A stretch of DNA of 64,000 bases from Halorubrum sp. PV6 (GTDB taxonomy: Archaea; Halobacteriota; Halobacteria; Halobacteriales; Haloferacaceae), in NCBI RefSeq assembly GCF_003990725.2, contig NZ_CP030064.1:2666001-2730000 (forward strand). The letters are read 5' to 3'. A program made the position numbers and the translations under genes. Of the stretch, positions 10,210 through 53,558 are shown piece by piece; position 1 is the first letter of the stretch; each line of letters begins with the position of its first letter. Below the pieces are notes generated by a model, which ran no database searches, was not told where the DNA came from, and worked only from the letters and a program-made list of their open reading frames with translations.

Positions 10210-10300
10210 GCCGTTCCGCTGCGGCGACGCCTCCGACTTTCTTTCCCCGGTTTCGACGACAGTGAGCCGCTGCCCGCGAGATGCTCGCGGCGAGAAGTAC

Positions 10301-10322
10301 GGGGCGGGAGGGATTCGGACCA
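10301..10322 (-). repeat. Degenerate copy 1 of tRNA-Lys 3' end
   Basis: gggcgggagggattcggacc matches the 3' end (acceptor plus T-arm) of the tRNA-Lys gene at 10526-10599 with one deletion and one substitution. It has no 5' half. It lies about 225 bp beyond the 3' end of the real gene. Confidence 0.6.
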
Positions 10323-10417
10323 CGTCCAGACGTGCTCGTTCGCTGCGCTCACTGCGCGCGACTGGCCTCTTCGAATCTCTCTAGCGTTTTCACTGCTCTC
10401 GTCGGTCGCAGGAAAAC

Positions 10418-10440
10418 GGGCCGGGAGGGATTCGAACCAC
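10418..10440 (-). repeat. Copy 2 of tRNA-Lys 3' end
   Basis: 21 consecutive bases (gggccgggagggattcgaac plus c) are identical to the 3' end of the tRNA-Lys gene, read on the same strand. No 5' half is present. The spacing to the real gene is about 109 bp. A further gattcgaaccctccc at 10469-10483 resembles a T-arm on the opposite strand. The spacers carry cttcgcttcgctcc-type repeats. Confidence 0.7.
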
Positions 10441-10525
10441 GGTCACTTCGCTTCGCTCCGTTCCCTGATTCGAACCCTCCCTCGGCACAGCACCGCCGCT
10501 CGCGATATTGCTCGCGGCGGTACAG

Positions 10526-10599
10526 CGGGCCGGGAGGGATTCGAACCCCCGACCGTCCGGTTAAAAGCCGGACGCTCTCCCTAACTGAGCTACCGGCCC
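10526..10599 (-). tRNA. tRNA-Lys (anticodon TTT)
   Basis: 74 nt on the minus strand. The acceptor stem pairs GGGCCGG with CCGGCCC, with discriminator G. The D-arm has TAGCTCAGTTAGG, the anticodon stem TCCGG/CCGGA encloses loop CTTTTAA (anticodon TTT), and the T-arm is GGGGGTTCGAATCCCTC. CCA is not encoded and no intron is seen. A TATA-like box (10627-10635) lies about 32 nt upstream. Confidence 0.95.
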
Positions 10600-22485: not shown

Positions 22486-22974
22486 ATGGCCGACTCGTTG
22501 TGGTACCCGTCCGTCGACGACGTCGTCGCCATCCACGACGACATCGTCGCGGAGTACCCCGATACTCCCGCCGGTGTTCGGAACCACGGCGACATCGAGT
22601 TCGCGCTGAACTACATCGAAAAGGGCAGCTTCGGCTCAGCGCCGGAAACCGTCCACGAGAAGGCGTACAATCTTCTGCGGCTCCTCGTCGCCAATCACCC
22701 CTTCGTCGATGCGAACAAGCGCACCGCGCTCAACGTGACCGCCGTCTTCTACTTCCTCAACGGGTATCGGTTCGAGTACGACAGCGAAGTGAGGACGATT
22801 CTGAAAGCGTTCGGCACCGACGAAGCGGCGGTGGATGAGGAGGACACCACCGAGTATCTGCGATTCCACACCGAAGAGTTGGATCTGGCCGGTGAGATCG
22901 ACGAATGGCGAGACGAACTCGTCCAGTACGGCTTAGCGGAGTTAACAGGCGATTCCTCGGACCCGAACGATTAA
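22486..22974 (+). CDS. Doc/Fic-family toxin
   Basis: 162 residues. The Fic motif appears as NHPFVDANKRTALN (His near residue 71), the Doc variant HxFx(N/D)(A/G)NKR. The helix before it (VHEKAYNLLRLLVA) and the following FYFLNGYRF also fit. Bacterial Doc phosphorylates EF-Tu and stops growth, and is normally held by an antitoxin. The catalytic His and Arg are present, so it may be active. Neighbours are IS remnants upstream and a 46-residue acidic protein 26 nt downstream, which could be its antidote. It sits in the island next to tRNA-Arg. Confidence 0.85.
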   Translation: MADSLWYPSVDDVVAIHDDIVAEYPDTPAGVRNHGDIEFALNYIEKGSFGSAPETVHEKAYNLLRLLVANHPFVDANKRTALNVTAVFYFLNGYRFEYDSEVRTILKAFGTDEAAVDEEDTTEYLRFHTEELDLAGEIDEWRDELVQYGLAELTGDSSDPND

Positions 22975-22999
22975 CGGCATTCGACGCGTTCGTACAGGC

Positions 23000-23140
23000 A
23001 TGGCCACCGAAGAGGGAGCGGAAACGACATCACCGCTCGACGACGTGATGGAGGACATCCGGCGAGAGTTGGTTCGGCGGGTCGCCGCGGACGACCGAGA
23101 TTCGAATCGGGACGTCTACGACGCCCTCGAAGACGAGTAG
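23000..23140 (+). CDS. Small acidic protein downstream of doc (possible antitoxin)
   Basis: 46 residues, beginning MATEEGAETTSPLDDVMEDI and ending YDALEDE. It is predicted to be mostly helical, with a charged amphipathic core RRELVRRVAADDRD. It starts 26 nt after the Doc stop on the same strand and so is probably co-transcribed. Its size and position suit an antitoxin, but I see no recognisable Phd-type domain. A chance ORF is possible. Confidence 0.45.
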   Translation: MATEEGAETTSPLDDVMEDIRRELVRRVAADDRDSNRDVYDALEDE

Positions 23141-23202
23141 CCGGCGCTGCCACGTTTTTATCCTATCTACCCGGTTGTACTCTGTCGATCAGAGCGATAC
23201 CG

Positions 23203-23364
23203 GCGCGACGGGATCCTCGCGAGTGAGCGGAGCGAACGAGCGAGGGTCAGTCGCGCCCGTGATTGAGCGAAGCGAAGGAACGGGCGCGACGGGATCCTCG
23301 CGAGTGAGCGGAGCGAACGAGCGAGGGTCAGTCGCGCCCGTGATTGAGCGAAGCGAAGGAACGG
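23203..23364 (-). repeat. Two tandem 81-bp repeats beginning with tRNA-Arg 3' end
   Basis: Two units (23203-23283 and 23284-23364) repeat at exactly 81 bp. Each begins gcgcgacgggat, identical to the corresponding part of the tRNA-Arg gene, which starts a third copy at 23365. After this shared stretch the units have cctcgcgagtgagcggagcg and then cgaacgagcgagggtcag, while the tRNA continues with its own T-arm. The units look nearly identical to each other. The repeats lie on the 3' side of the tRNA, facing the island. Confidence 0.85.
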
Positions 23365-23434
23365 GCGCGACGGGATTTGAACCCGCGGCATCTTGGTCCG
23401 GAACCAAGTGCTCTGTCCGCTGAGCTACGCGCCC
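23362..23434 (-). tRNA. tRNA-Arg (anticodon CCG)
   Basis: 73 nt on the minus strand. Acceptor GGGCGCG pairs with CGCGCCC, discriminator G. The D-arm has TAGCTCAGCGG, the anticodon stem CTTGG/CCAAG encloses TTCCGGA (anticodon CCG), and the T-arm is GCGGGTTCAAATCCCGT. No intron and no encoded CCA. A TATA-like cgttaaacg (about 23459-23467) is centred about 29 nt upstream. The 3' end borders the 81-bp repeats. Confidence 0.95.
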
Positions 23435-53292: not shown

Positions 53293-53470
53293 GGGCGTTT
53301 TGACCGGGGGCGCGAGGTTAACCCTTTCCTCATCGCTCCGTTTTGCCGACCGTCGCGATCCGCGATCGCGGGCATCGAACCCCACCGTTTCGAGTGGAAC
53401 CAGCGCATTCGTGGGTACCGCGATCCGGTCGGCGACGGTCGCCAGTCGGGGTCGGCCTCCGCCCGTCGCC
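53293..53470. other. Spacer upstream of serA and the tandem repeat
   Basis: Apart from the serA promoter box (about 53317-53324) I see no gene or RNA feature here. Confidence 0.4.
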
Positions 53471-53558
53471 CGATTCGGTCATCATCCGATTCGGTCATCA
53501 TCCGGTTCGGTCATCATCCGGTTCGGTCATCATCCGGTTCGGTCATCATCCGGTTCGA
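53471..53558 (+). repeat. 16-bp tandem repeat, five units plus a part
   Basis: The unit is cgattcggtcatcatc in the first two copies and cggttcggtcatcatc in the next three (53471-53550), then cggttcga. The period of 16 is not a multiple of three, so no protein repeat is coded. The array lies in the noncoding spacer about 90-180 bp before the gene at 53650. Confidence 0.9.

Follow-up and report, generated by a model that had tools for sequence, protein, structure and literature searches.

The tRNA-Arg(CCG) locus of Halorubrum sp. PV6 raises the question of what the short tandem units are that follow an intact tRNA gene and repeat its 3' end, and how they came to lie there. The locus was analysed within a window of 64,000 nucleotides (contig NZ_CP030064.1, positions 2,666,001 to 2,730,000 of the forward strand), to which the coordinates given below for the tRNA-Arg and tRNA-Lys loci refer. 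The tRNA gene, identified by ARAGORN and by Rfam (RF00005, 69 bits), is intact and lies on the minus strand between positions 23362 and 23434, the point of insertion being its 3' end at 23362. It is followed on the same strand by two units of 81 bp: cassette 1 (23281 to 23361) adjoins the tRNA, which in orthologous loci lacking the unit abuts the flank, and cassette 2 (23200 to 23280) lies beyond it. Tandem Repeats Finder returned a period of 81 with 100% matches between 23202 and 23376, an exact repeat of 93 bases starts at 23203, and the two units compared in register differ at a single base (99% identity). The first-pass annotation, which had described two 81-bp units with the tRNA-Arg as a third register, was thus borne out.

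The last 15 nt of the tRNA (ATCCCGTCGCGCCCG) recur on the minus strand as an exact copy in cassette 1 (23281-23295) and as a copy with one mismatch in cassette 2 (23200-23214), the latter being the final tail before the host flank TATCGCTCTGATCGACAGAG. The repeat search revealed a perfect 11-nt inverted copy of the acceptor end (GTCGCGCCCGT) on the plus strand inside each unit, at 23331-23341 in cassette 1 and at 23250-23260 in cassette 2. An inner hairpin (GATCCTCGC...GCGAGGGTC) was predicted by DNA folding on the plus strand from 23293 to 23329, with the cap GA-GT-GA-GC-GGA-GC-GA-AC-GA, a GNA triloop with tandem G.A mismatches; its stem reads CCACGC/GCGTGG or CCCCGC/GCGGGG in relatives. A second GA/GNA hairpin core (GATTGAGCGAAGCGAAGGA; 23342 to 23360, plus strand, repeated at 23261-23279) joins the inverted copy to the tRNA tail, and both cores of a unit follow the pattern GA-NN-GA-GC-GNA-GC-GA-NN-GA on the plus strand of the window. 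Along the tRNA strand the order is accordingly the tRNA end ATCCCGTCGCGCCCG, the spacer TTCCTTCGCTTCGCTCAATC, the inverted tail ACGGGCGCGAC, TGACCCTCGC-loop-GCGAGG and ATCCCGTCGCGCCCG, after which the whole series is repeated. Folding of the 81-bp unit as DNA gave -24.8 kcal/mol (z -3.8) for the plus strand and -22.2 kcal/mol (z -4.1) for the minus strand, with an energy model that may not credit GNA loops or tandem G.A pairs. The annotation had recognised the bases shared with the tRNA, which proved to be its last 15 nt, but its label of a private spacer is not supported, since the inverted tail and the two hairpin cores make up most of that spacer.

The 81-bp unit is too short for a gene, and the open reading frames across the array merely traverse the repeat. 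A search of the array against Rfam gave the tRNA itself as the sole match, the cassettes matching no curated family. The genes flanking the array encode a Fic/DOC protein and a histidine kinase. At the far array end (22486-23140, plus strand), the Fic/DOC-family protein (162 aa) is followed by a 46-aa ORF, and the two are probably a toxin-antitoxin pair; the 46-aa small gene also seems to follow the empty tRNA-Arg in locus L028. Elsewhere in the window (53470-53557), a 16-bp unit (CCGGTTCGGTCATCAT) is repeated 5.5 times with 98% matches.

The same layout had been claimed for tRNA-Lys and was found there. Behind tRNA-Lys(TTT) (10526 to 10599, minus strand; RF00005, 70.6 bits), an array at 10300-10525 consists of two minus-strand units of 109 and 117 bp. 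The 109-bp cassette (10417 to 10525) contains the inverted tail GAGGGAGGGTTCGAATC, the core GGAGCGAAGCGA and a tail copy, and the 117-bp cassette (10300 to 10416) contains the conserved core CAGTCGCGCGCAG...CGAGCACGTCTG of the type designated A below (model R1 match at 10303-10385, E 9.7e-12).

All 46 tRNA genes of the 3.04-Mb genome were scanned with their surroundings. A copy of the gene's own 15-nt tail, with at most 2 mismatches, was detected within 400 nt on the 3' side of 16 of the 46 genes and in the 5' flank of one. When tails were paired 200 times with the flanks of unrelated tRNAs, the mean was 0.05 and the maximum 1, so the tail copies are not due to chance, in agreement with the earlier view that one design at unrelated tRNAs points to a mechanism; similar arrays, which were to be sought at other tRNA 3' flanks, accompany roughly one in three of the genome's tRNA genes. 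The lone upstream case, the tRNA at 116800, carries a second whole tRNA in its flank, the two complete genes standing in tandem; the other gene of the pair is counted among the 16 partly on this account, and it has in addition a true tail copy further on. The motif GAGCGNAGCGA showed no genome-wide enrichment (57 sites against 57 for the reversed control) and is special by place only, about 21 of its 57 sites lying within 400 nt on the 3' side of a tRNA.

Distinct units, 202 in number, were cut by script from collected loci; as the collection was made partly by a search for the type A core, the counts given here are not frequencies. Type A, in which the local tRNA's T-arm recurs inverted, comprises 131 units (median 126 bp), and type B, with the inverted acceptor end, comprises 30 (median 81 bp), to which the units of the Arg array belong; 36 units fit neither rule and 5 fit both. 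Units are bordered by tail copies of about 14-22 nt, the match to the tRNA being mostly at least 20 nt in type A and most often 14-15 nt in type B. The inverted arms correspond to the local tRNA: with at most 1 mismatch, the inverted T-arm matched the unit's own tRNA in 105 of the 202 units and another tRNA's T-arm in 10, and the inverted acceptor end matched its own tRNA in 24 and another's in 1. Type A cassettes at Arg-CCG (L080) and Arg-CCT (L081) are alike before the arm and related outside the tail, L080 carrying ATTTGAACC and L081 ATTCGAACC, each complementary to its own T-loop. In locus L057 (G000:C1:1711557, tRNA-Tyr), two 135-bp units contain a partial tRNA-Tyr whose T-arm is interrupted by hairpins, and the layout of L162 and L260 is similar.

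The cassette body thus consists of an inverted part of the local tRNA tail and of hairpins with GNA loops and tandem G.A pairs, which stand in the sense orientation in type A and in the antisense orientation in type B. With sense defined as the tRNA strand, GA-NN-NNN-NN-GA hairpins numbered 122 sense and 16 antisense in type A, and 2 sense and 50 antisense in type B. This opposite strandedness speaks for a role at the DNA level, and the terminator array that the first reading had offered is not favoured, since the best-folding type B hairpins lie on the strand opposite the tRNA. The hairpin loops are mostly GNA triloops; DNA mini-hairpins of the GNA/GNNA kind with G-C closing pairs are exceptionally stable, GCGAAGC having a Tm of 78 °C (PMC4686876). 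The type A core AGTCGCGCGCAGCG-N-GCGAGCACGTCT is common to 90 sequences with little variation, an invariance that is partly imposed by the search pattern, which fixed most of the core and left the outer stems free. In the stems of these 90 sequences, 92.4% of the cells were paired, and cells altered on both sides without loss of pairing numbered 151, compared with 48 +/- 6 in shuffled and 3 to 59 in slid controls. The conserved core of type A sits inside a covarying stem.

The type A core pattern matched 37 of 59 relatives, with 0 matches for the reversed control, and in a named genome collection the core was found in haloarchaea of many genera. Where a tRNA was in reach, almost all haloarchaeal core matches shared its strand and followed it at a distance of about 50-225 nt, usually with a copy of that tRNA's tail after them. 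A covariance model derived from the type A alignment and applied to six genomes (E < 0.01) returned 89 places, of which 78 lay at most 500 nt on the 3' side of a tRNA on the same strand, against about 0.4% expected by chance. At E <= 1e-6, all 11 genomes of Halobacteria were matched, against 0 of 69 genomes from elsewhere in the phylum. A full type A cassette stands behind tRNA-Val on a contig of the Bacteroidetes bacterium QS_9_68_14 MAG (L186), likely a misassigned haloarchaeal contig; bacterial core matches were otherwise without a tRNA and chance-like. Carriage by viruses or plasmids was considered and dropped, the matches being one viral contig and one megaplasmid, with none in the 50,697 phage records searched. 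The viral contig (L241, IMGVR_UViG_3300027007_000028; 10.9 kb) carries tail-virus-like genes and ends in the 3' half of a tRNA-Gly followed by a type A cassette, and it is probably the right end of a provirus with a host array; a search of viral contigs with an integrase as query found nothing. On the megaplasmid, the match lies beside a tRNA-Val that is visible in the sequence and absent from the gene table.

Orthologous loci were then compared, one genome per species, so that the states at each site fit gain or clean loss alike. Among 31 Halorubrum genomes, the Arg-CCG site was empty in 22 (including L010, where a loose match 446 nt off was scored as empty), and it carried B in 6, a truncated B in 1, BB in 1 (Halorubrum sp. 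PV6) and AB in 1. Whether or not cassettes are present, the flank that follows the tRNA 3' end is of the same kind, giving clean empty-site junctions. The flank TATCGTTCTAATCGCATGAC and its close variants were found directly behind the tRNA (L014, L025, and similarly L013 and L021), behind B (L002, same flank) and behind A-B (L080, similar flank), and the flank TCACGTTTTCTGACGG was found both at empty sites (L020, L027, and similarly L012, L016 and L017) and behind B (L003/L074). Identical flanks with and without units could also be explained by homologous recombination between species. At Arg-CCT, one species (L081) carries B-A-B. The Lys loci of 30 genomes held 0 to 5 units with the same lead modules in differing order. 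Unit number, the variation of which the annotation had proposed to count between strains, thus ranges among species representatives from 0 to 2 at tRNA-Arg and from 0 to 5 at tRNA-Lys. A cassette exactly fills the space from the 3' end of the intact tRNA to the host flank and has a tail copy at its end; depending on the species, a given tRNA is followed by A and B cassettes alone, in tandem or in mixture.

Larger elements are found at these tRNA ends too. Some tRNAs are separated from their cassettes by gene-bearing islands of 1.9-8.2 kb (L243 of Halorubrum sp. PV6, L244, L247, L252), with tyrosine integrases in L244, L247 and L252, that of L252 in two overlapping frames; integrase islands also sit at the cassette-bearing tRNA ends of L253-L255. 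The island of L252 ends in its own 3' tRNA-Gly copy. The units A, B, another A-like one and B stand beyond that copy, so they are not simply the ends of the island. A model match (E <= 0.05) was found near the integrase gene in 5 of 30 integrase loci, those inspected lying beyond the island tail copy. The idea that the cassettes are the integrase-side ends of islands, that is, their miniature derivatives, was abandoned, the inspected matches being separate from the islands. The link between integrase and cassette is one of position only. The integrase family of L247 occurs in 150 of 195 haloarchaeal genomes; being widespread, it is a plausible helper and no more. Inserts in which no integrase was recognised run straight into the type A end in L243 and L171, and these may be island-end derivatives or large cassettes of the same family. 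In L243 (G000:C1:302450-304321), the insert between tRNA-Ala and the type A cassette is 1.9 kb long and AT-rich, with two ORFs that have no Pfam match. In L171 (Halorubrum alkaliphilum), a 1.8-kb insert occupies the same kind of position, between tRNA-Ala and a type A cassette, and by eye its genes look like a nucleotidyltransferase/HEPN pair.

We consider it rather probable that the 81-bp units belong to a class-wide family of very small non-coding elements, here called tRNA-tail hairpin cassettes, whose site of insertion is the 3' end of haloarchaeal tRNA genes. The fixed place, the restored tail, the mixed arrays and the variable presence are read directly from the loci. Among the three options that the annotation had offered, a small selfish repeat inserting at tRNA tails fits best, while simple amplification of an attachment site by a resident element disagrees with the cassettes of L252 and L253-L255, which lie beyond the island tail copy. 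A rival reading, rather unlikely in our judgement, is that of ancient palindromic tRNA-end repeats which only expand and contract as their tail copies slip or cross over unequally, and which spread with their locus by homologous recombination, with no transposition. The tandem arrangement and 99% identity of the Arg units, the tail copies of 14-22 nt that flank most units and permit clean loss, the related Arg cassettes at the same tRNA in several species, and the extra base in the T-loop copy that some tRNA-Ala cassettes of several genera have in common all count in its favour. However, in-place duplication does not bring a single core to tRNAs of many kinds throughout the class and fit its arms to each of them, and the relatedness outside the tail of cassette A at Arg-CCG and Arg-CCT, as well as the variation in unit order and mixture within one flank background, also speak against it.

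Selection could instead have kept the units as a structured RNA of the tRNA read-through transcript, such as a trailer-processing, terminator or small-RNA element. Type A, downstream of the tRNA and on its strand, with a conserved core and a covarying stem, would suit such a role; we nevertheless hold it improbable, because type B has the folding motif on the opposite strand, presence varies freely among congeneric species, Rfam gave no match, and the loops are mostly GNA triloops, which are typical of very stable DNA mini-hairpins, though they would be compatible with RNA too. Even less credence is given to the view that the units are scars, in which a tyrosine-integrase island or provirus lost its interior by deletion and only attachment sites were left. 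It draws on the integrase islands at the same tRNA ends (L244, L247, L252, L253-L255), on the hairpin similar to GAGCGAAGCGAG near the tail of some island ends (L253, L254, L282) and on the viral contig with the partial tRNA-Gly and type A cassette. Yet the cassettes of L252, L253, L255 and L260 come after the island's tail copy and are thus older or independent, random deletions would not give one core at many kinds of tRNA, and the 50,697 phage records gave no match.

If the units are insertable cassettes, an insertion would restore the tail, the target would survive, and more cassettes could be added, giving arrays. Because a double-stranded circle of only 81 bp would be under strain, a folded single strand or a recombination route is favoured here, rather than the circular intermediate of classical elements. 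We infer that the cassettes move, probably in the form of a folded single strand or another short intermediate of recombination, with a recombinase acting in trans; the first candidates would be the tyrosine integrases whose targets are these tRNA ends. Hairpin-templated repair probably copies the inverted arms anew from the local tail, so that one core would be able to serve many different tRNAs, and units may be lost cleanly by recombination between tail copies. A bolder version, put forward as a tentative possibility, is that of a gene-less cassette system of the whole archaeal class, in which folded single strands recombine at any tRNA tail, with the universal T-arm as the feature recognised, and adapt their own arms to each new tRNA, so that one core could colonise the whole tRNA set harmlessly.

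Several known systems resemble the cassettes in part. REP/REPIN elements and integron cassette arrays offer parallels in short hairpins that probably work as folded single strands and in arrays that grow at a fixed target. The present units differ in that they include no coding cassettes and have the tRNA tail as target, and no REP transposase or integron integrase is tied to them. REP/REPINs are dispersed extragenic hairpins, whereas type A matches concentrate at tRNA 3' ends (78 of 89), and against an integron stand the Fic/DOC and histidine kinase neighbours of the Arg array and its units without coding sequence. Casposons are defined by a target duplication of 14-15 nt at a tRNA end, terminal inverted repeats and Cas1; the type B repeat length of 14-15 nt agrees with this definition, and the unit has no room for Cas1. 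Tyrosine-integrase elements (archaeal proviruses and integrative elements) occupy tRNA 3' ends (PMC8371274, PMC7921747) and likewise target the 3' part of the tRNA, produce a direct repeat, leave the tRNA intact and allow tandem integration. The cassettes have the border repeats, the intact tRNA and the empty site in relatives; they encode no integrase, are usually 60-130 bp long and geneless, use one core for many tRNAs and contain the inverted local tail. The SMRs (80-110 bp) and PATEs of Haloquadratum walsbyi are described as lacking target duplications, and SMRs as lying mainly in other mobile elements (PMC3119063). They too are very small non-coding haloarchaeal repeats with inverted repeats or palindromes and with mobility that is unknown or borrowed, but, judged by their descriptions and not their sequences, they differ from the cassettes, which stand at tRNA ends and are bordered by tRNA-tail copies where SMRs have no target duplication. 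In Haloferax gibbonsii LR2-5, partial tRNAs beside full copies were counted as remnants (PMC7921747), in an account that mentions neither a repeat family or core nor inverted arms or empty sites. These partial tRNAs and the Haloquadratum small repeats were the closest entries in the open-access literature searched, which contained no description of the cassette family; it is apparently an undescribed family of tiny insertable elements.

The cassettes may explain some annotations of partial tRNAs, and they can mislead searches for provirus attachment sites. If the reading as insertable cassettes is right, an overlooked family of minimal elements capable of insertion accompanies some of the most conserved genes in every haloarchaeon sampled. 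The tRNA-tail arrays would then be a natural record of insertion and loss, and the arms copied from the local tRNA would offer a direct handle on DNA-hairpin repair and copying in archaea.
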